Shown: positions 2,270 through 11,828 of the stretch, piece after piece | How positions within the stretch are numbered: position 1 is the stretch's first letter | Layout of the letters: each line of letters begins with the position of its first letter | Virus record (IMG/VR): IMGVR_UViG_3300006753_000108 | Coordinates: 1-20,336 of that record | Reading direction: 5' to 3' (one strand) | DNA: 20,336 nt | DNA from: a virus | Position numbers and translations under genes: made by a program | The notes under the pieces: generated by a model | What the model was told of the DNA's origin: nothing | Databases searched by the model: none | What the model saw: the letters and a program-made list of their open reading frames with translations, nothing else

Positions 2270-2435
2270 TTACTAATACCTCCAGTTTTTTTGCTGTAAG
2301 TTTATATTTTTCAGCTATCCAAAGTACCGTGTCCGGCAAGAACTTTTCCTCCGTAAGCATATAATGTAGCTGTTCTGTTGCAAGTTCTGTATCTTTATTC
2401 AATTGTTTTAGTTTATCTTTGATACTTGTTTCCAT
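2226..2435 (-). CDS. Hypothetical small helical protein
   Basis: 69 residues from the ATG at 2435. An upstream in-frame ATG at 2456 would add seven residues but has no Shine-Dalgarno. Both starts lie inside the 3' end of the polymerase gene (overlap 28 or 49 nt). The protein is Lys/Glu/Leu-rich and predicted mostly helical, possibly a short coiled coil, with a Lys-rich C-terminus. No family is recognised. Its overlaps with the polymerase and the next gene suggest coupled translation. Confidence 0.55.
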   Translation of the reverse strand: METSIKDKLKQLNKDTELATEQLHYMLTEEKFLPDTVLWIAEKYKLTAKKLEVLVNEHKNNTKFSITIK

Positions 2436-4360
2436 AATTGATTTGCGTTCCCCCATGTTTGACCAAATTCACAATCTACTACTATGGGTACAGAAAGATT
2501 TACCGCTTCCACCATGCATTGCTCACAAATCTTGTATTCTTTTTCATTACTTATAGACATATCTAATTCATCATGCATTTGTAGCATAGGTAGTTGTCCT
2601 TCTTGATAAATAGCCCGCATTGCTTTTTTAGTCATATCAGCAGCACTGCCTTGAATTAAACGATTAAGTGCTTTATATGTAAAAGCTCGTTTAATTCCGG
2701 GGCCATATTTTTTCAATGCTTTATCTCTACCAGAAATAGCTACAGACGGGCCTTTAATTAATTCCCATGTGTCAAAATGACATAATCGACCTTCTATTGT
2801 GCGTATCCAACCTCGTTCTTGTGCTAAGTTGGAACAAGTATTGATTAATCCTTTAACAAACGGCACACTTTCGTGATATGAATTTAAAATTTCTTTGCCC
2901 TCTGCTCCAGGAACTTCATAGTCATTACCTGTACGTTTATTGGTTTTCCGTTCCGTAGGTAAACCTAAATCGTGGCACAGTTTTACTCCCCCCATTCCAT
3001 AAGTAATACCTAGATTAATTGTTTTAGCGTCTTTTCTTGGTATATTAGCTAATTCTGCCACCATGCCATGATAATCTGTATTTGGATCTTCATTATATTT
3101 ACGAACGGCTTCTTCAGCACCATTTTGTTTTGTCAAATAAGCGTAATGAACAGTAAGGCGCGGTTCTTGTGACGAATAGTCAAACGCCCCCCAGACTGTG
3201 TCTTTTTCTGGTAAAAATAAACCGCGTATCATAGGCGCAAATTCCGCATCCCGTGCTGTGGTTTGCTGAAGATTAGGATTACTACTACTTAATCTGCCCG
3301 TTACAGTTCCTCCTTGTTCACTTTTTAATGGATGTAATTCAGTATGAATGCGCCCATTGACGCTATGCGATAATATGGTGCCTTCTAAAAATGTATTGAT
3401 TGTTTTTTCAGTTTGGCGTATTCGTAATATTATACTTGTAATAGGATGATCATGTGCTGCGAGAAATTCCTTAGTAAAACTAGGTAATCCAGTTGGAGTG
3501 TAAGTATAGGATAGTCCTAATTTATCAAAAGCTCTTGCTAAACTTTCATTTTCCCAAACAGCAATCGTAACTTCGTAAGCATCCCTTATTTTCTTATGAA
3601 GCTTTTGTATTTGGCTTTTAAGTTTTGGAACTAATTGTTCGGCTTTGTTTACATCAACTCGTATGCCTCGTTCTCGCATTTTTATAAACATAGGAACGAG
3701 ATCTATTTCTAAACGAAATAACTCTTCAAGTCCATCCCGTTCCAATAACTTTTGTTCATATTTCCAAAGATCATATGTCACTTTAACATCTTGTTCAGCG
3801 TACGGCCCTACAAGTTCAGGAGGTAGTCTGTAAAGATTTGCCTTAATGTTTTTTCTAGGAATACCAAAAACAACGGCAGCTTCTTCTAGTAAGCGTTCAT
3901 CTTTACTTGTCCCTATCCAGTCTTTAGAGATATTGTCTAAACTATAAGACGTCCTATTTTCATCAATTAAGGCGGCAGCAAACATAGCATCATTTATTTC
4001 ACCTTTAGTTTCAATGCCCTCAGCTCGGTTCCATCCTATATCATACATTGAATTAAAGAATATTTTTGGTATGTTAGATCCACAAAGATCTGACATGTAT
4101 TCTAGCACCAAGTCCTTATCTAAATTAGACCCTTGTTCATGTGCGATAGGTAAGTAATAAGTATCTATGCTAGACCCGCGCACAAGACCAATTGAAAACC
4201 CTATTACATTTCCATCTTTTCGCGCCCAGCCACTTCCACGTTCTTTTAAATTTGGATCTTTTGTTTCATTGTCCATAGCTATGGCATCACAGCCGCGAAA
4301 ATCGGGTAAAATTTCTGGGGGTACCCAGTTATTCTCAGGTATGAATAGAGGTAGTTGCAT
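2408..4360 (-). CDS. polA: Family A DNA polymerase with 3'-5' exonuclease
   Basis: 650 residues; this should be the replicative polymerase. The N-terminal proofreading domain has Exo I Asp30/Glu32, Exo II Asn103/Asp107 and Exo III Tyr187/Asp191. The polymerase domain has TGRLSSSNPNLQ at 354-365, motif A Asp394 in FDYSSQEPR, motif B Lys446 to Tyr454 (KTINLGITY) and motif C His596-Asp597-Glu598. There is no 5' nuclease domain, which fits phage Pol A enzymes. Leu450 sits at the position of E. coli Phe762, the residue whose Phe/Tyr/Leu variants have been linked to phage lifestyle. The ATG has GAGG 5 nt upstream and lies within the end of the HTH gene (26-nt overlap). Unlike the SAR116 phage HMO-2011 enzyme as I remember it, no DnaJ-type insert is visible between the exonuclease and polymerase domains. 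Confidence 0.97.
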   Translation of the reverse strand: MQLPLFIPENNWVPPEILPDFRGCDAIAMDNETKDPNLKERGSGWARKDGNVIGFSIGLVRGSSIDTYYLPIAHEQGSNLDKDLVLEYMSDLCGSNIPKIFFNSMYDIGWNRAEGIETKGEINDAMFAAALIDENRTSYSLDNISKDWIGTSKDERLLEEAAVVFGIPRKNIKANLYRLPPELVGPYAEQDVKVTYDLWKYEQKLLERDGLEELFRLEIDLVPMFIKMRERGIRVDVNKAEQLVPKLKSQIQKLHKKIRDAYEVTIAVWENESLARAFDKLGLSYTYTPTGLPSFTKEFLAAHDHPITSIILRIRQTEKTINTFLEGTILSHSVNGRIHTELHPLKSEQGGTVTGRLSSSNPNLQQTTARDAEFAPMIRGLFLPEKDTVWGAFDYSSQEPRLTVHYAYLTKQNGAEEAVRKYNEDPNTDYHGMVAELANIPRKDAKTINLGITYGMGGVKLCHDLGLPTERKTNKRTGNDYEVPGAEGKEILNSYHESVPFVKGLINTCSNLAQERGWIRTIEGRLCHFDTWELIKGPSVAISGRDKALKKYGPGIKRAFTYKALNRLIQGSAADMTKKAMRAIYQEGQLPMLQMHDELDMSISNEKEYKICEQCMVEAVNLSVPIVVDCEFGQTWGNANQLWKQVSKIN

Positions 4361-4632: not shown

Positions 4633-5001
4633 TCAGATTTGGTCTGAATCCGGAGCATCGTTCTGGATAACAATTTGCGTGGTATTTTCACTTTGAAATA
4701 ATTCTCCAGTGGTCATACTTACAACCTCAGCTTCGACGAGCATTAAATAACGGCGTAAATCACTAATGTCGTCTAACAATCCATCTGTCTTATCTCTTTC
4801 TTTATACAGAGCTGCTAAAATATTATAGTCCCCGCGTAAATGGTTTTCAATTCTATCCCATTTGCGGGCAAGCATCATAAATGCTCCAACGCCACCTCGT
4901 TTTTTCCAACTGGAACCGTATTCGGTTTCTTTTTCTAAAAGCACCTTAACATCATTATCCGCGACTTGCTGAAGATATTCTAAATGTTGATTATCTGACA
5001 T
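4633..5001 (-). CDS. Phage protein resembling Nmad1/DUF1599 or MazG-like all-alpha proteins
   Basis: 122 residues. Conserved-looking blocks are YGSSWKKRGGVGAFMMLARK with WDRIEN following (about 28-53), and LDDISDLRRYLML (about 76-88). The Tyr-Gly-x-Ser-Trp plus Lys/Asp-Arg-Ile pattern recalls the nucleotide-modification-associated domain 1 group. The D-x-x-x-D helix recalls all-alpha NTP pyrophosphohydrolases. I cannot decide between them. GGAG lies 7 nt upstream of the ATG. It overlaps the sulfotransferase gene by 11 nt and closes the modification block before the HTH and polymerase genes. Confidence 0.6.
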   Translation of the reverse strand: MSDNQHLEYLQQVADNDVKVLLEKETEYGSSWKKRGGVGAFMMLARKWDRIENHLRGDYNILAALYKERDKTDGLLDDISDLRRYLMLVEAEVVSMTTGELFQSENTTQIVIQNDAPDSDQI

Positions 5002-5674
5002 GTTCTTTCTCCGGGTATATTTCTTTAAATTCTTGTGATGAACAAAGATGATTTATTTGACTTCTCGTTAAAAGTTTATGCCCCGTGCCAATTTTTCCTG
5101 ATCTAAAAAATCTATGCGCGTGGGGACTGCGGGCATTCATTTTGAAACCGCCTTTTTCCTCCTGCTTACGGCATATTTCAAATGAACTAAATTTTACTGC
5201 GCGACACAAACGCTCATAGTCATATGATAACCCGAAATATAAAATAAGATAACCAAATATTTCTACTGGTGTTTTATACATGTCTTCGTAACGTAGCATT
5301 AATCCAGCATGATGTTTCCAACTAGAAACATGAAGGGGCCAGTGTTTTGCTACATGGGTGACGGATTCATTAATAGAAATATTTTTATGGTCGCTGAAAC
5401 TAGGAACTATGTCACAAGGATGGCGAACATGATAAACAGCTCTGTGCGTTTTATGTAGTTTATGATTATAATCTTTATGTGTTTTTGCATAAACTTGTCC
5501 ATGTCCGTGTTCTAGATTTTTCAAGGTTTCGCCACAACTAAATGGGATTTCTGTACTATAACTGGCCACATCCAAAGGTCTTTTCATATTTAGTATATAA
5601 TTCGCAAGAAAAATCCGAATCCAGGTGTTTCCACTTTTTGGATATCCGGCAAGCCAAATAGGTTCATGCGTCAT
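4991..5674 (-). CDS. PAPS-dependent sulfotransferase
   Basis: 227 residues; a compact but apparently complete member of the cytosolic sulfotransferase fold. The 5'-phosphosulfate loop is YPKSGNTW (11-18). KTH (Lys64-Thr65-His66) sits where the catalytic His lies in this family. The 3'-phosphate motif is VRHPCDIVPSFSDH (83-96, with Arg84 and Ser92), RYED follows at 128-131, and FRSGKIGTGHK (190-200) matches the C-terminal R-x-G-x-x-G PAPS loop. The enzyme should transfer sulfate from host PAPS to a hydroxyl or amine; the acceptor is unknown. There is no signal peptide, so it acts in the cytoplasm. It overlaps both neighbours by 11 nt and lies among DNA-modification genes. Sulfation of a modified base, or of a surface or metabolite target, are the alternatives. 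Confidence 0.9.
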   Translation of the reverse strand: MTHEPIWLAGYPKSGNTWIRIFLANYILNMKRPLDVASYSTEIPFSCGETLKNLEHGHGQVYAKTHKDYNHKLHKTHRAVYHVRHPCDIVPSFSDHKNISINESVTHVAKHWPLHVSSWKHHAGLMLRYEDMYKTPVEIFGYLILYFGLSYDYERLCRAVKFSSFEICRKQEEKGGFKMNARSPHAHRFFRSGKIGTGHKLLTRSQINHLCSSQEFKEIYPEKEHVR

Positions 5675-5918
5675 TACAAAACTTCATTGCGTTTTCCCAA
5701 CCATTTTTTATTGGATTAAACCAAGCTTCTGCATCAAGTTCCTTGATATCAAAATCAGTTTTTAGTAATTGTTCTTTAATATTTCCATCGAACACAAAGA
5801 TTTTTGGATCCTGTTCTTCTAAAAAATTAAATTCAATAATTGTTTTAACCGAATCTATTTTTTTATCGCTTGTAACTACAGTAATTATTTCAGCACGAAT
5901 TAATTTAAAATTGCTCAT
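5664..5918 (-). CDS. Hypothetical small protein
   Basis: 84 residues, no family recognised. It reads as alternating beta strands (FKLIRAEIITVVTSD, TIIEFNFLEE, KIFVFDG) followed by a helical end (AWFNPIKNGWENAMKFCNDA). It joins its neighbours by an ATGA overlap with the HD gene upstream and an 11-nt overlap with the sulfotransferase downstream. It is therefore very likely co-translated with them and may be an accessory subunit. That role is inferred from position only. Confidence 0.6.
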   Translation of the reverse strand: MSNFKLIRAEIITVVTSDKKIDSVKTIIEFNFLEEQDPKIFVFDGNIKEQLLKTDFDIKELDAEAWFNPIKNGWENAMKFCNDA

Positions 5919-6397
5919 AAGTCTGCTTCCATAGCGATAAGCTCATTAAGCATTGTTTTAGAATTTTCATCAAGAGCAGTATCCTGTAAATATTTTACTC
6001 CTCTTACAAATATTTCTTTAAATGTTCTGTTACCTCTACGTTCTTCTTCAATACAAAACCAAAGCAGTTCCATCATATCTGCAATTTTTAATCGTTTTTT
6101 ATCATCATCATCTAATGCGATCCATAAGCCCATTTCATTCATTAAATTATGTTCTACGTCTGCGAGAGCTTGGGCTAATTTTGGGTGCTTCCATTTAATA
6201 GGCGCTGGATTATCTCCTAAATGAGCTTCAGATACATCATGATAAAGGGCGGCAAGAAGTAAGTTCTTGCTACAATTTTCCCAGAGCTTGGCGCATAGAA
6301 CAGCCACCCCCCACGAATGCTCCCCAACACTTTGATTACGAACTGGGGGAATCGTGTGCCACCTGAGAACGCTTCCGCCCTGTCTTATTTGCCGCAT
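5915..6397 (-). CDS. HD-domain 5'-deoxynucleotidase (YfbR-like)
   Basis: 160 residues. It shows the YfbR-type pattern: RWHT, Arg20 in VRNQSVGEHS, metal ligand His27, His53-Asp54 in ALYHDVSEAHLGD with Glu57, and Asp107 in KIADMMELL. Family members remove the phosphate from deoxynucleoside 5'-monophosphates. Within a hypermodification block it could lower dTMP or another competing nucleotide, as phage-encoded dTMPases do in hydroxymethyluracil phages; the substrate cannot be read from sequence. The start is secure: AAGGAG lies 8 nt before the ATG, even though this puts the first 62 nt inside the end of the upstream thymidylate-synthase-like gene. The stop forms an ATGA overlap with the next gene. 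Confidence 0.88.
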   Translation of the reverse strand: MRQIRQGGSVLRWHTIPPVRNQSVGEHSWGVAVLCAKLWENCSKNLLLAALYHDVSEAHLGDNPAPIKWKHPKLAQALADVEHNLMNEMGLWIALDDDDKKRLKIADMMELLWFCIEEERRGNRTFKEIFVRGVKYLQDTALDENSKTMLNELIAMEADL

Positions 6398-7364
6398 TAT
6401 TTTGTCTCCTTACCAACCATTCTTTACATGCTGCTCGCCAGTCACTAGCCATAATAAAATCTATTTGATTATGGGCTTCTTGATAATTTTTATGTTTCCA
6501 TGCCCGCCACGCCTGACGCATGGGTTCCGCTACCGCACCAAAGAACGGATTAGAATAATGCTTAATTTTTATTTCATGAATAAAACAAGATAGGTCTTCA
6601 TCCCATAGCTTAGGATTTTCTACCATTGGCATTGTTGTAACATTACCATAATCATACGGATCCTCGGGAGCCGGATCAGGGGAACCTAGTTTATCTAATA
6701 TATCCACATAAGCATGAAAATCATTACTTACTTGATGATAGTACCCCATGCGAAAACCTGTCATACTTGCCATATATTCTTGAAGCATGGACATGTGAAC
6801 AGCGTTAGCCCCATAAGCCCCCCAGATAATATCATTAGAACGATTACACACTGTCATATCTAATCGCCCTGCTCTAGCTCTAAATAATATCGTTAAATTA
6901 CAGGGAAAATCTTTGCCCTCTTTACCAAGATCAGCTACTGGATCCCACATAGTAAGCACCGCTCTACGAGTATTTGGATCTTTTTTCAATAGCCTAATTA
7001 TTTTAATTATTTGATCAGTTTCATTCTGACCAAACCAACGTCGCCATCTGGTGCCATAAGCTCCATGAAAGTTTTTGCCATTGTCACTAAATTTGTAAAA
7101 TTGACTATTAAATTCACTTATCCATTTAACATCGTTTCGTCCATTTAACATCCACAAGGCTTCCATAAGATGAAAAAATGGGTTTGCATCACGAATTTTG
7201 TTAAACAGTACTCGTTCCCAGGGACGGACATATGTAGTGCAAACAGGACTCGGATAAGTGATTACCTTACCGGCTCTGCTGTCTTCTTCCTTGCCCCGTG
7301 CTAATAAATCTCTAAGTCCAACAACATAGGCTTCATTCACATTGCGGGCATGAATTATGTGCAT
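6336..7364 (-). CDS. Thymidylate synthase-fold pyrimidine (hydroxy)methyltransferase
   Basis: 342 residues from the ATG at 7364, chosen over a TTG at 7388 because the fold begins right after it (MHIIHARNVNEAY) and the overlap shrinks to 10 nt. In the numbering of the longer form, Arg141-Arg142 bind phosphate, Cys163 in FPCNLT is the nucleophile, RSNDIIWG (183-190) replaces the usual RSCDxxLG, and His225/Tyr227 bind the nucleotide. The next loop reads AYGANAV where ThyA has LPFN, so the Asn that selects dUMP is displaced or moved by one. The enzyme could be a true thymidylate synthase or a dUMP/dCMP hydroxymethylase. The neighbouring kinase and aGPT-Pplase-like genes favour 5-hydroxymethyl-dUMP. 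The roughly 20-residue basic tail overlaps the HD gene. Confidence 0.88.
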   Translation of the reverse strand: MHIIHARNVNEAYVVGLRDLLARGKEEDSRAGKVITYPSPVCTTYVRPWERVLFNKIRDANPFFHLMEALWMLNGRNDVKWISEFNSQFYKFSDNGKNFHGAYGTRWRRWFGQNETDQIIKIIRLLKKDPNTRRAVLTMWDPVADLGKEGKDFPCNLTILFRARAGRLDMTVCNRSNDIIWGAYGANAVHMSMLQEYMASMTGFRMGYYHQVSNDFHAYVDILDKLGSPDPAPEDPYDYGNVTTMPMVENPKLWDEDLSCFIHEIKIKHYSNPFFGAVAEPMRQAWRAWKHKNYQEAHNQIDFIMASDWRAACKEWLVRRQNNAANKTGRKRSQVAHDSPSS

Positions 7365-7945
7365 ATTAAATTTTCCAACTTGTTCCAAGCCGCTTCACGA
7401 TCTAACATAGCGGCGTTCATATTATCAATTTGACATTTGCCCCAAGTTTTTTGATTCGTATTATACATACGAGTTAAATTATAAATTGTTCTTTCATCAG
7501 GCACGGCTTCTTCAGGCGTTTTACCACGTTCAATTCTACGAGCAACTACGGCTTCTAAACATGTCTTAATATCCGTATCTAAAAACAAAAAGAAAAAAGG
7601 AGTCGTTTCTGCTAGTTCTTTCCAACGTCCATAGCTATTACAGGTAAGTAGCCCTTCAAAGATAACGTGTTTGTGAATTTCATTTGCCTTTACTACAAGA
7701 TTCATAACCTGATCTTGAGTTTTAATAGTATCACAACCCCCGCACTTAGTTTCATAGCGACCTACTACATGAACCCCGTTGTTGAGCGTGTAGCCAACAA
7801 TCTTTTTCTTAGTAGTTGATTTTAATATATCTCGTTTTCCAAGCACATAATCTTCAATGTGATCAACAACAGGATATTTGTCAAACAGCCGCTTTATCAT
7901 GTAACTTTTACCTGTGCCAGAAGTTCCTCGTATATTAATTATCAT
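7355..7945 (-). CDS. P-loop kinase, candidate 5-hmdU DNA or nucleotide kinase
   Basis: 196 residues. Walker A is GTSGTGKS (7-14). VIFEGLL (94-100) is a Walker B-like strand, and Arg136/Arg137/Arg140 form a likely lid. A distinctive block, GRYETKCGGCDTIKTQDQV (62-80), carries a CxxC pair. Size and lid fit small-molecule or nucleotide kinases. In hypermodifying phages a P-loop domain phosphorylates 5-hydroxymethyl-dU in DNA, often fused to the helical domain that is here encoded separately at 8800-9654. I infer a split version of that enzyme; a dNMP kinase is the alternative. GGAG lies about 7 nt before the ATG, and the gene overlaps both neighbours by about 10 nt. Confidence 0.8.
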   Translation of the reverse strand: MIINIRGTSGTGKSYMIKRLFDKYPVVDHIEDYVLGKRDILKSTTKKKIVGYTLNNGVHVVGRYETKCGGCDTIKTQDQVMNLVVKANEIHKHVIFEGLLTCNSYGRWKELAETTPFFFLFLDTDIKTCLEAVVARRIERGKTPEEAVPDERTIYNLTRMYNTNQKTWGKCQIDNMNAAMLDREAAWNKLENLICT

Positions 7946-8483
7946 TTAAATTCTCCAATTTTTCAAATACCGAGAAACATCTAATGCGGTTATTGAAACC
8001 ACACATAATGCCCACGGCAGCGACAAATTTTCCATTTTTTGGACACTTGGGTAAAATGTAGTGAAGGATCCCCACCTTACCGCCAATTTCAAGCACTTCG
8101 AATGCTCTTTTAATAATCTCATTTGGCTTTGGATAATTATCAGCCCCCGCCCAATATTTATTAGCGTCTTCCATTGAATACGGCGGGTCGCATATTATAT
8201 AGTTCCATTGCCCCGGCCATGGATCCCGCACATCTTGTAAATAATTAGGGGCACACTCAGGATTTATATCTAATGTTTTGTCGTTATCTCCAAAGCCTCC
8301 TTTATATGGATAAAGCCGCGACATACCGCCGCATACATGTAGAACATTATCGTTACGACTTGCGCCAATTAAGGTTCGTGCCCTTTCCGGGAATCCGCCA
8401 AGATAGGCACCGTAATATTTCTTCCCATCTTTTAGTTTGGCTCTAGCAAGAAACCAAATATCGGTAATGGGCCTATACGTCAT
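7935..8483 (-). CDS. SAM-dependent methyltransferase with DPPY motif
   Basis: 182 residues. It has a Rossmann start (NVLHVCGG, 46-53), an acidic Asp72 ending strand 2 (TLDINPE), Asp84 and Asp87 in LQDVRDPW, and the catalytic DPPYS at 99-103 preceded by hydrophobic WNYIIC. DPPY is the signature of amino-group DNA methyltransferases (N6-adenine or N4-cytosine). No separate target-recognition domain is visible in this short protein. It could methylate adenine or cytosine, or an amine on a modified base. The start is an ATGA overlap with the upstream gene and the end overlaps the kinase by 11 nt. Confidence 0.8.
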   Translation of the reverse strand: MTYRPITDIWFLARAKLKDGKKYYGAYLGGFPERARTLIGASRNDNVLHVCGGMSRLYPYKGGFGDNDKTLDINPECAPNYLQDVRDPWPGQWNYIICDPPYSMEDANKYWAGADNYPKPNEIIKRAFEVLEIGGKVGILHYILPKCPKNGKFVAAVGIMCGFNNRIRCFSVFEKLENLNDN

Positions 8484-8734
8484 TTTACTCGACTTTTCAT
8501 TTTATCTACAAATGGCTGCGTAAATCCTTGATACTTTTCATGGCCTAACTTATCACGTACTAGGGCATTATAAATTTCCACTAAGGCCAAGGCTCTATCC
8601 GACATTTCTGCATTTTCAGGTAAAAATAACTGTGTGCCATCTTCTTCGGTTATTACTACAGCCGTATCATTTGGAGACAGGGTGATATTTTTACCTTGAA
8701 TAACATTATAAGCATCCGCAAAGCCCGGAAACAA
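8480..8734 (-). CDS. Hypothetical protein, start codon unclear
   Basis: From the TTG at 8734 this is 84 residues with no recognised family: a beta-rich N-terminus (NITLSPNDTAVVITEEDGTQ) and a helical C-terminus. The TTG has no ribosome site. The frame stays open and protein-like to about 8800 (KVKNTAGAVVPIEVNALF precedes it), where a perfect AAGGAG (8795-8800) overlaps the stop codon of the previous gene. No ATG, GTG or TTG follows that site in frame; the nearest codons are ATA (8789-8791) and ATC (8786-8788). The true product may therefore start at 8788-8791 and have about 103 residues. It ends in an ATGA overlap with the methyltransferase. Confidence 0.65.
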   Translation of the reverse strand: MFPGFADAYNVIQGKNITLSPNDTAVVITEEDGTQLFLPENAEMSDRALALVEIYNALVRDKLGHEKYQGFTQPFVDKMKSRVK

Positions 8735-8799
8735 AGCATTGACTTCGATTGGAACTACGGCCCCCGCAGTATTTTTTACTTTTGTGATTATAGTCTCCT

Positions 8800-9654
8800 T
8801 TATGATTCAAATCGTTTATATTTATTTCTTGGACGTCCTTCGCCCAGCCGCACCCTTTCATACTTATCAAATTCACAAAGTTGAAATTGTATGCAGTGTA
8901 AATCCAATTCAATGTAGTGTTCGGGCCAGTGAAATGCTCGTTGACCAAATATCGCTAATAATTCCCTTAACATTTGCTTTTCAGATCGTTTGGCTTTTAT
9001 ATCATATTCAAAAACTCGGTTAAGGCCACGCCGAGCACCCGGACCGAGAGGACACCAAGTATTGCGATCTTTACATTTTGACAAAACAGGAGTGTGCATT
9101 GCGTCTTGCAAAACTTCTTTTGTCATAAAGCCACTGCCGCCAAAACCTTTTAACTGACGCATACGATTGGCTGTTGTTTCCCAGGATTTTGAATTAAGCG
9201 CCAATGCGGCAAGAGAATCTTTTATTTCCCAAAGCGGGCGTAAGAAAAGATTGCACACAACTTCTTGTTTCGGGGCACTTATTCCTTGGTTAGTGATAAC
9301 ATAAGCCCCAGTAAAAACACGCATACCGGCCGACAAACGATTAGTGGCAAGTTGAATTATTCTAATACTGTCAAATCTTGCTTGCCAGCCAACAGCTTCT
9401 GCAAATTCGATTGTTCCAAAGTAACGAAAAAAGGCACAGTTAAATAACTGTTTGCCGAGGGGTTCATTTAAATTAGGACCGGTCCAATGTTCCCGCATCC
9501 ATCTAGTAGTCTTATCGTGTTCTCTATCAACATTGGTAAATTTATATGTTTGTAAAATTTTATCGTCGGTCCAAGGCCACGGCGCACCTGTTTCTTTCTT
9601 TAGGCGAATTTCTTCTCGCTTACACATAAATTCACAAAACTCTTTAGTTCTCAT
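8800..9654 (-). CDS. aGPT-Pplase / 5-hmdU DNA kinase helical-domain protein
   Basis: 284 residues. The N-terminal block has KREEIRLKKETGAPWPWTDD (12-31), then YKFTNVDREHDKTTRW (37-52). A helix-hairpin-helix-like stretch, LKGFGGSGFMTKEVLQDAM, is at 168-186. The C-terminus has EFDKYERVRLGEGRPRNKY (261-279). These match what I know of the aGPT-Pplase2 / HMUDK_hel family, identified by Iyer and Aravind and linked to phages with 5-hmdU-derived hypermodified thymine (phiW-14, SP10, ViI, M6). Family members act on hydroxymethyluracil in DNA, forming a pyrophosphorylated intermediate that is then displaced by another group. The P-loop partner appears to be the gene at 7355-7945. The ATG sits just after the stop of the 9657 gene, with GGGGG upstream. 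Confidence 0.85.
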   Translation of the reverse strand: MRTKEFCEFMCKREEIRLKKETGAPWPWTDDKILQTYKFTNVDREHDKTTRWMREHWTGPNLNEPLGKQLFNCAFFRYFGTIEFAEAVGWQARFDSIRIIQLATNRLSAGMRVFTGAYVITNQGISAPKQEVVCNLFLRPLWEIKDSLAALALNSKSWETTANRMRQLKGFGGSGFMTKEVLQDAMHTPVLSKCKDRNTWCPLGPGARRGLNRVFEYDIKAKRSEKQMLRELLAIFGQRAFHWPEHYIELDLHCIQFQLCEFDKYERVRLGEGRPRNKYKRFES

Positions 9655-9656
9655 TT

Positions 9657-9875
9657 CTAACCCCCGAATAAATTATGAATAATATCAAACTTTCCTTGTT
9701 CTAAAAGCACTAATATATCCCGACCATCTATGGTGCTGGTGTCCTGATAAAGTGAACCATCGGTGGTACGGCCTAAAACAATGACATGATCAAATTCTAT
9801 TTCTTTCGCTCTTTCTAATATGTCTTTAGGTAGTGTTGGAACACCCTCCATAGTCACTACGTTTTTAATGTTCAT
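9657..9875 (-). CDS. Hypothetical small protein
   Basis: 72 residues, no named family. A short beta-alpha unit is visible (LPKDILERAKEIEFDHVIVLGRT), then DGSLYQDTSTIDGRDILVLLE. Such small beta/alpha proteins are frequent in phage replication modules. AAGGGA lies about 6 nt before the ATG, which supports the start. It ends 2 nt before the aGPT-Pplase-like gene and follows the structured spacer at 9876-9979, so it is the first gene of the modification block. Confidence 0.6.
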   Translation of the reverse strand: MNIKNVVTMEGVPTLPKDILERAKEIEFDHVIVLGRTTDGSLYQDTSTIDGRDILVLLEQGKFDIIHNLFGG

Positions 9876-9979
9876 GACATTCCCTTAAAAGGTGTGGGCT
9901 TCTCACCCACTTGAAGGTTACAAGAATTGGTGTTAAAATAAACTCCAATTCGGGGAGTCGAACCTTTAAGACCTAGGCA
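9876..9979 (-). other. Structured spacer with two hairpins and a tRNA T-arm lookalike
   Basis: These 104 nt lie between two minus-strand genes, longer than most gaps in this operon. Hairpin 1 (9924-9951) has perfect 7-bp arms GAATTGG/CCAATTC plus three inner pairs. Hairpin 2 (9894-9910) has 5-bp arms GTGGG/CCCAC around a 7-nt loop, then a short T-run on the minus strand. At 9954-9964 the minus strand reads GGTTCGACTCC, like a tRNA T-arm, but it does not fold into a tRNA. It may be an RNA control element, terminator or attachment-site remnant. Confidence 0.4.
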
Positions 9980-10282
9980 CTAGGCCGCTTGCTTGTTCTC
10001 TACGGAACCTTCTAAACGAATACGACCATAGGCTGTATCTTTTCGAACATTACGCAAAGTGCCGCCAATAGCTTTCGCCTTGACCAAAAATTCAGCAACT
10101 GTCATGCCATCCCTATACACAGCAAAGATCTTTGCTGCTTTTGTGCCCTCCCGGCGTTGACGAACATTATCGTCCCCAACTAAATAAATTTTTTGGTCGG
10201 GACCAACCATCACGTTTTTAATGTCGTCCTTAGAAACTAAAGGAGTCTTTGGTCTTTTAGTTTCTTCTATATTATTAGCCAT
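9980..10282 (-). CDS. Hypothetical small basic protein, possible HTH fold
   Basis: 100 residues. The N-terminus is charged and probably flexible. The C-terminal half (GTKAAKIFAVYRDGMTVAEF, then Gly-Gly-Thr-Leu-Arg and YGRIRLE) reads like a helix-turn-helix followed by a beta hairpin, as in small phage DNA-binding proteins. This is pattern-based and I cannot name a family. GGAGG lies 8 nt before the ATG. It sits between the helicase gene and the structured spacer before the modification genes. Confidence 0.6.
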   Translation of the reverse strand: MANNIEETKRPKTPLVSKDDIKNVMVGPDQKIYLVGDDNVRQRREGTKAAKIFAVYRDGMTVAEFLVKAKAIGGTLRNVRKDTAYGRIRLEGSVENKQAA

Positions 10283-10340: not shown

Positions 10341-11828
10341 CTATATTGGATAAAAGAAGAACTTTGTGTTTGGGACAATAATGTGCAAATTTTTTCGAGT
10401 TCTAGTTGCTCCTACGTAGAATACTCGTTTTTCTGCGTCCGGCATTTTAATCATATCTTGATACGTACGATGAGCCATGTCTGTGAATAAAATAACATTA
10501 TCTGCTTCACCCCCTTTTGCCCCATGTATTGTAGAAAGATTTATTCTAGGAGTTTTAGTTATTTTTTCACCCTTGCGTAAAGCAGCTATCATATAAGAAC
10601 GTTCTACTAAACTCATTTTATCAAAAGCTTCGTGCCATATAGCCGTTGTTAGTATTTCAAAATTATCTTTTAAAAATTCTAAAGTGAAGCAACCTTCCTT
10701 TGGAATTTTTGCCATCTTGCCTTTAATATTCCAAATAATGTTTTTAGCTTCTTTAGCATTGCATTCACCTCCTTTTCGTAATTTTTCCCACGCCATTATT
10801 GTGTCTAAAGTAGTTTGATCTACACTCCGGCGTTGTCGTCTTTCGTAAATCAAACCTTCTCTTCGACACTGTTCCTCTACAGGATCTAGGAAAAATGCAT
10901 TTCTAGCTAACACCAACCAGCTTCCCTTATCCATGTTAATATTTTCAGTTGTGGTGTGATAATTTATTCCCCCTTCTTCTTCTTTACTAGCCCATTGTTT
11001 TTCTCTGCGTGTTTTTACTTCTTTTATAATATTTAAAGCAAAATTTTGAATTTTTTGGGGAGTTCTATAACTTTTATTTAAGGTATTCACCTTTCCTTTA
11101 AGATTAATAAAATAATTTATATCTGCCCCTGCCCATTGAAATATGGCCTGATCATCATCTCCAGCTACAATAACTTTTTTTGCTGAAGCCGCCAATTTTT
11201 CAACCATGCGCCACTGGAGTTGACTAAGGTCTTGGGCTTCGTCAATAACCAAAAGATCAAGAGAAGGAGCACCGCCGTCCCCAACAAAACGCTCAAGCAT
11301 ATCAGTGAAATCAAATAAACCGTGAGCAAGCTTAAATTTTTTAAGTCCATTATGCACTCTCTCTATTTCATACCAGCCTAAATCATTAGTATTTGATTTC
11401 CACTGTTTTTCTAAAGACACGCATTTTAATCTAGCTAAAGAAGAAAGAAACAACGCTTTGTCGCCTTTACTGTTTCCGTATATTGTTCCGTCCTCTGAAT
11501 TTATTTTTCCACTAATTCTAAGCCCCATAATATCACCAAATTCTTGATATTTTTTATAATTCATGACATGATTTTTACTTAGTCCTAGCATTCTAAAAGC
11601 CATGCTATGTAAAGTGCGAAAATGAGGTAGTTGTTTTTCTGACAGCATAAAACGATCACGCGCACGTTCTATGGCTTCATTTGCTGCTTTACGAGTAAAA
11701 GCCACAAATCCTATCCTATCCGGTCTTACGCCTTCTTGTAATGCCTTATCCACTTGATCTAATAAAAAAGTTGTTTTTCCGGTTCCTGGTTATGGGGGGC
11801 CGATAATTATTTCTGGACGAAATGTCAT
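10341..11828 (-). CDS. UvrD/Rep-like SF1 helicase, in-frame TAA in Walker A
   Basis: Reading from the ATG at 11828 (AAGGAG 10 nt upstream), the N-terminus is MTFRPEIIIGPP, then TAA (11790-11792), then PGTGKTTFLLDQV in the same frame. The remaining 470 residues from the GTG at 11753 are intact and carry the other SF1A motifs: Ia (FVAFTRKAANEA), DEAQD at 171-175, GDDDQAIFQW (198-207), SYRTP, STIHGAKG and YVGATRTR. Numbering is from that GTG. The stop is flanked by identical CCA codons, and removing TAACCA restores the canonical GPPGTGKT P-loop. A product starting at GTG 11753 would lack the P-loop and could not hydrolyse ATP. Either a recoding event makes the full protein, or the gene is freshly inactivated, or there is a sequencing variant. 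It would normally unwind DNA for replication or recombination. Confidence 0.85.

Follow-up and report, generated by a model that had tools for sequence, protein, structure and literature searches.

Background

The DNA of Pseudomonas phage M6 holds 5-(2-aminoethyl)deoxyuridine (5-NedU), which is derived from 5-hydroxymethyldeoxyuridine (5-hmdU) via a 5-hmdU DNA kinase (PMC6449724). The putrescinylthymine route of Delftia phage phi W-14 comprises synthesis of 5-hydroxymethyl-dUMP (5-hm-dUMP), its incorporation and its phosphorylation in DNA, and the DNA of this phage can retain the pyrophosphorylated base upon failure of displacement (PMC5977210). Here we describe a gene block related to these systems in the virus record IMGVR_UViG_3300006753_000108, a fragment of about 20 kb that was analysed over its full 20,336 nucleotides (hereafter the window), with gene functions assigned by homology. 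The fragment belongs to a mesyanzhinovirus-like phage, its genes being similar to those that Mesyanzhinovviridae (YuA, M6, Lucjan and Sonora) carry in the replication half. The block, which runs on the minus strand from position 9875 to 4633 (Table 1), is a real set of genes for thymine modification in phage DNA, and it includes a gene for a predicted sulfotransferase.

Like the 5-NedU cassette of M6 and YuA, the block encodes a homologous dUMP hydroxymethylase (a ThyA-fold enzyme, TS), a kinase, a helical HMUDK_hel protein (HEL) and an HD protein near a family A DNA polymerase; in M6 the order is gp54-gp55-gp58, with the polymerase gp62 downstream. M6-type phages also carry an amino acid:DNA transferase (ADDT; PF18724, E = 5e-50 in YuA) together with pyridoxal phosphate and radical S-adenosylmethionine (SAM) enzymes, the latter two being listed for SN1, an M6-like phage, whereas none of these was found in the 20 kb of the window, which adds a methyltransferase and a sulfotransferase. 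With phi W-14 the window would share the making of 5-hm-dUMP, incorporation and then phosphorylation in DNA, and tblastn matches its kinase to two Delftia phage records; phi W-14, however, replaces pyrophosphate by putrescine, and no displacing enzyme was found in the window record. The nearest HEL (57-62% identity to L323, L324, L325 and L326) and TS (56%) belong to uncultivated cassettes (L005/L323, L006, L324-L327) that have the same order of UvrD, HEL, slot gene and TS before the polymerase region. Their slot holds a glycosyltransferase of the TAGT or GT4 kind, in some cases with a radical SAM enzyme, whereas that of the window is filled by the kinase and the methyltransferase.

A predicted 5-hmdU kinase pathway

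We consider it likely that the block serves thymidine hypermodification as a cassette of the 5-hmdU kinase type. The ThyA-fold enzyme would make 5-hm-dUMP, the HD nucleotidase would adjust the nucleotide pool, and the phage PolA would incorporate 5-hmdU into DNA. HEL, as a base-presenting protein with a DNA-glycosylase-like fold, and the P-loop kinase would then phosphorylate part of the incorporated 5-hmdU. The end product, since ADDT was not found in the 20 kb, would be 5-phosphomethyl- or pyrophosphomethyl-dU, or the product of another enzyme, perhaps encoded outside the fragment. The first three steps are proposed because the enzymes have homologues in phages whose modified bases are known, and the block is not a chance assembly, because HEL and TS co-occur in 220 fetched loci.

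The ThyA-fold protein (6336-7388) is 48% identical to M6 gp58, and in an alignment that includes gp58 it retains Cys163 and Asn195. These we take to be the catalytic Cys and the Asn that specifies uracil, respectively. Across the whole clade, M6 enzyme included, no residue aligns with Trp80 of E. coli ThyA. Homology and residue signature thus point to a dUMP hydroxymethylase. Its translation probably begins at the inner ATG (7364) rather than at the TTG (7388), because M6 gp58 and L006 start there. It is highly improbable that the protein is a plain thymidylate synthase, that the cassette makes thymidine only and that the kinase and HEL act elsewhere. Thymidylate synthase is the family name in both Pfam and PHROG, but the identity and active-site signature are shared with an enzyme from a phage with 5-hmdU-derived bases, Trp80 is missing throughout the clade, and the linkage to HEL is conserved. 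The HD nucleotidase has homologues in 44 loci of a first set and in 116 later loci.

The kinase is a homologue of the M6- and Ab18-type 5-hmdU DNA kinases. It is 27-34% identical to Pseudomonas phage proteins over 98% of its length and 21-36% identical to 10 kinases of related cassettes, and it retains the residues common to 11 such kinases. Its PHROG 800 label, 'terminase small subunit', was rejected as a misnomer. The same label is carried publicly by the 5-hmdU kinase homologues of M6 (L403, 41685-42248) and Ab18 (ORF12), which are apparently misannotated.

For HEL, the preliminary description had named a place outside the aGPT-Pplase/5-hmdU kinase helical family as grounds for abandoning its proposal; the PF18723 match and the fold place the protein inside. 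The AlphaFold2 model (predicted local distance difference test score 94.9) finds its best match in the PDB in 8z2n, the 5-phosphomethyl-dU (5-PmdU) glycinyltransferase gp46 of phage PaMx11 (VIA Z 11.2, 215 residues), followed by helix-hairpin-helix DNA glycosylases (3knt, Z 10.8). The match is suggestive, Foldseek E-values being weak alone (0.39) and helical folds being able to reach middling Z by chance, and it is consistent with a base-presenting role. A viral scan with the single HEL protein gave no confirmed relatives, and the profile scan did find them.

The TS, kinase and HD nucleotidase assignments of the preliminary description have likewise stood, as has that of the small methyltransferase, which has a DPPY motif and phrog_3816, 'DNA methyltransferase', as its sole family match. 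A relative with 64% identity (L402) lies in a contig stretch without core genes, among unrelated phage genes, and the methyltransferase was therefore rejected as a likely displacing enzyme.

Several points weigh against a kinase-type cassette. All functions are inferred, and a true thymidylate synthase and another ThyA-fold enzyme are not separable from sequence alone. The kinase scores 25.2 bits against HMUDK_HMUD1, slightly short of the 27 bits that Pfam requires, and comes after HEL, whereas in nearly all kinase cassettes it precedes HEL. Finally, as the record is a 20 kb fragment, an ADDT may lie elsewhere.

The displacement step and the end product

The known route with which this locus had been compared ends with displacement of the phosphorylated group. 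Hydroxymethyl-dUMP formation, incorporation and phosphorylation have predicted counterparts here by homology to M6; displacement has none, for neither ADDT (PF18724) nor aGPT-Pplase3 (PF18746) gave a match in the 20 kb record at E up to 10. An ordinary M6 or phi W-14 route, with displacement by an amino acid or amine and an ADDT encoded in the two thirds of the genome that the fragment lacks, seems rather unlikely. The window is indeed a fragment, and 39 of 50 kinase records have an ADDT, but of the 38 measured, 37 are no more than 5 kb away from the kinase, and the window covers 12.4 kb upstream and 7.3 kb downstream of its kinase and contains none. An ADDT-free kinase route may be real, since four kinase contigs of 43-64 kb (L248, L253, L043 and L052) have no detectable ADDT. 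For the kinase-type cassette of the window, the end product is most likely 5-phosphomethyl-dU or a further product of another enzyme. Directly upstream of the kinase in three of the four contigs lie unassigned genes that are candidates for displacing enzymes (L248:8674-9300 and 9339-10001, L043:7086-7865 and L052:7931-8590).

A fixed core with a swappable second step

Viral scans were queried with TS, kinase and HEL, taking at most 80 loci per scan and using local hidden Markov models (HMMs) made from small families. Dereplication at 90% HEL identity reduced the 220 loci with HEL and TS to 161, which have a glycosyltransferase-slot gene (cluster c0, c6 or c8) in 85 cases, a kinase in 61, neither in 15 and both in none (Fisher p = 2e-30; this and the following p-value assume independent loci and are made optimistic by phylogeny). 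As loci from the kinase scan bias this test, it was redone without them and with c0 and c6 only, giving 76 loci with a glycosyltransferase, 11 with a kinase and none with both (p = 9e-7). The census thus shows a cassette design in which a fixed core of hydroxymethylase and HEL is combined with a swappable second-step enzyme, either a glycosyltransferase-slot gene or a kinase.

The usual gene order in the loci is UvrD, HEL, slot, TS, HD or neighbours, and PolA. By Pfam, the slot families are TAGT glycosyltransferase, GT4-like glycosyltransferase, radical SAM, methyltransferase and FkbM, while kinase cassettes hold ADDT, a DAO-type oxidoreductase and others. The 16 HELs closest to that of the window are all of the glycosyltransferase type. 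The lineage of the window thus seems to be one where the slot passed to a kinase, apparently in exchange for a glycosyltransferase. A glycosyltransferase-type lineage that has turned kinase-type, and that has lost the displacing enzyme or never had one, may reveal a phosphomethyl end product. The modular design also opens to test the idea that HEL presents bases to different decorators in general and is more than a kinase domain.

The related loci also yielded several minor observations. Family c8 (L072:8188-9141; L373, L379 and L384) occupies the glycosyltransferase slot of nine dereplicated cassettes and is a possible decorator. It has no Pfam or PHROG match, and profile comparison links it to neither TAGT nor GT4; c8 was not accepted as a glycosyltransferase, and is kept as a slot gene of unassigned family (exclusivity holds without it). 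A second slot family, comprising L366:10861-11952 and 10 relatives (among them L339, L345, L376 and L380), matches the GT4 cluster in hhalign with 83% probability over 324 columns, and is probably a divergent glycosyltransferase. L320:6775-7881 encodes a myo-inositol-1-phosphate synthase (8e-36) in a cassette with two HEL and two kinase genes in tandem. A GDP-mannose dehydratase-like epimerase gene (L371:10904-11851) between HEL and a TAGT glycosyltransferase hints at a phage-made sugar donor. Pairs of kinase homologues stand in tandem directly upstream of HEL in L251, L258, L259, L266, L268, L272 and L273 (with an unassigned gene between in L268), and may divide substrates or phosphorylate successively.

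The sulfotransferase

The sulfotransferase reads as a genuine 3'-phosphoadenosine 5'-phosphosulfate (PAPS) enzyme by family score, PAPS loops, catalytic His and predicted fold, in agreement with its first assignment. It scores 41.9 bits against PF00685 (cut-off 22), and the alignment shows its motifs to be intact, with the PKSGNTW loop, KTH and FF-R-GK as well as the Arg and Ser that are conserved at the 3'-phosphate site; the SULT fold is indicated by a match to TEG12 (E = 3e-9). In these respects it is like the cytosolic-type PAPS sulfotransferases (TEG12, StaL and SULT1), from which it differs as a short form (227 amino acids) encoded in a phage DNA-modification cassette. The base composition of the gene is not distinctive, and the gene is probably co-expressed with the run.

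As part of a conserved DNA-modification system the sulfotransferase does not recur. None of the 161 dereplicated HEL and TS cassettes has one, none of 76 viral sulfotransferase loci has a TS, HEL or kinase, and a broad HMM of 148 sulfotransferases matched no other HEL, TS or kinase locus. A tblastn search of 50,697 phage records gave no match at 1e-5 and two at chance level at E up to 10; a single-protein viral scan found no confirmed relatives, and a profile scan did. The sister sequences are five phage proteins (L087-L091; tree support 0.97), the closest phage relatives adjoin terminase and peptidoglycan-hydrolase-like genes, and the bacterial relatives number hundreds, mostly from Alphaproteobacteria among the matches listed. 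The lack of cassette relatives, together with sisters beside terminase genes, makes recent acquisition probable. The protein is probably a functional tailoring or accessory enzyme.

There is about an even chance that it is an unrelated accessory enzyme whose target is a host surface sugar, lipid or small molecule, as might be used to alter receptors during infection, and that its place in the cassette is incidental. The sister sequences outside DNA-modification loci, the many bacterial relatives and a distribution free of cassettes all favour this, but the gene is embedded among genes for nucleotide and DNA modification and shares 11 bases with each neighbour, and the genes found within related cassettes are mainly those of nucleic-acid and tailoring enzymes, alongside homing endonucleases.

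A sulfated or otherwise novel base had been suggested for this phage. The part of that suggestion concerning a real sulfotransferase in the gene run has held, whereas the comparisons gave no tie to DNA. If the enzyme acted on the base, it would to our knowledge be the first sulfotransferase to take part in DNA hypermodification; a literature of limited coverage yielded no DNA modification that relies on a sulfotransferase, a weak negative. In such a scheme, the enzyme would sulfate the hydroxyl of 5-hmdU or a later group, in DNA or nucleotide. The sulfate would be either an anionic end decoration, as in 5-sulfooxymethyl-dU or a sulfated phosphorylated-base product, or a leaving group that replaces phosphate and activates 5-hmdU for displacement. 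Cytosolic SULTs convert hydroxymethyls on aromatic rings to reactive sulfate esters (PMC4710668), and as benzylic-type hydroxymethyls react in this way a DNA substrate would be attractive. The intact PAPS-site and catalytic residues, the position of the gene in a tightly overlapping run, with the HD nucleotidase on one side and the conserved 4633-5001 gene on the other, the recruitment of tailoring enzymes (FkbM, GNAT, sugar epimerase and radical SAM) by related cassettes, and the need for a replacement step where ADDT was not found in 20 kb are all in keeping with it. We nevertheless regard base sulfation as improbable, given the zero counts in cassettes and at viral sulfotransferase loci, the terminase and peptidoglycan-hydrolase-like neighbours of the closest phage relatives, the action of the closest solved structures on small molecules, and a kinase that already takes the same hydroxyl. 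If the enzyme did act on DNA, it would represent a new class of nucleic acid modification.

The sole Pfam sulfotransferase among 83 related records (G063/L085) was dismissed as a cassette gene; it lies beside tail-like genes on the same record as L067, far from TS. This gene (L085:1471-2810) adjoins an Asp/Arg-hydroxylase-like gene near glycine-rich tail-like genes, and is unlike the sulfotransferase of the window.

Organisation of the gene run and neighbouring genes

Adjacent open reading frames of the run overlap by 4-62 bases, with two exceptions, where gaps of 65 bases (8734/8800) and 2 bases (9654/9657) occur. No minus-strand terminator-like site was found within 9875-4633; a terminator-like site on the same strand lies directly upstream (9959-9941; consensus match only).

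Table 1. Genes of the minus-strand run and its conserved flanks in the window
Positions	Strand	Product	Match or remark
10341..11753	-	UvrD-like helicase, conserved flank at opposite side from the polymerase	E 7.5e-26
9657..9875	-	Small protein, phrog_11040, first gene of run	PHROG E 1.1e-12
8800..9654	-	HMUDK_hel (PF18723), helical, DNA-glycosylase-like, predicted 5-hmdU pathway	Pfam E 1.2e-36
8480..8734	-	Small protein	No family match at E < 0.04
7935..8483	-	Small DPPY-motif DNA methyltransferase-like protein	phrog_3816 E 3.9e-22
7355..7945	-	P-loop 5-hmdU DNA kinase homologue	HMUDK_HMUD1 E 1.3e-5
6336..7364 (TTG-started open reading frame to 7388)	-	ThyA-fold predicted dUMP hydroxymethylase	PF00303 E 3.5e-25; phrog_5131 E 6e-120
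5915..6397	-	YfbR-like HD deoxynucleotidase	Pfam E 3e-18
5664..5918	-	Small protein, AT-rich (GC 0.28)	
4991..5674	-	Predicted PAPS-dependent sulfotransferase, PF00685 (Sulfotransfer_1)	E 1e-10; 11-base overlap with each neighbour
4633..5001	-	Conserved cassette neighbour protein	Family recurs in related loci
2408..4360	-	Family A DNA polymerase, conserved cassette flank	E 3.3e-52

The protein at 4633-5001 had been called Nmad1-like, a label that has to be withdrawn: it had no Nmad1 match in Pfam at E limits of 1 and 10, and nor did four homologues at E up to 10. Its family recurs in 42 and 64 related loci of two sets. For the first protein of the run (9657-9875), no homologue was found in the first 84 related loci. 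The window further encodes an SNF2 helicase, Pam3 gp33/gp34-like proteins and an archaeo-eukaryotic primase, in addition to the UvrD helicase and the family A DNA polymerase, and at its edge a DnaJ-domain protein (1.7e-24) is encoded on the plus strand (1-1326).

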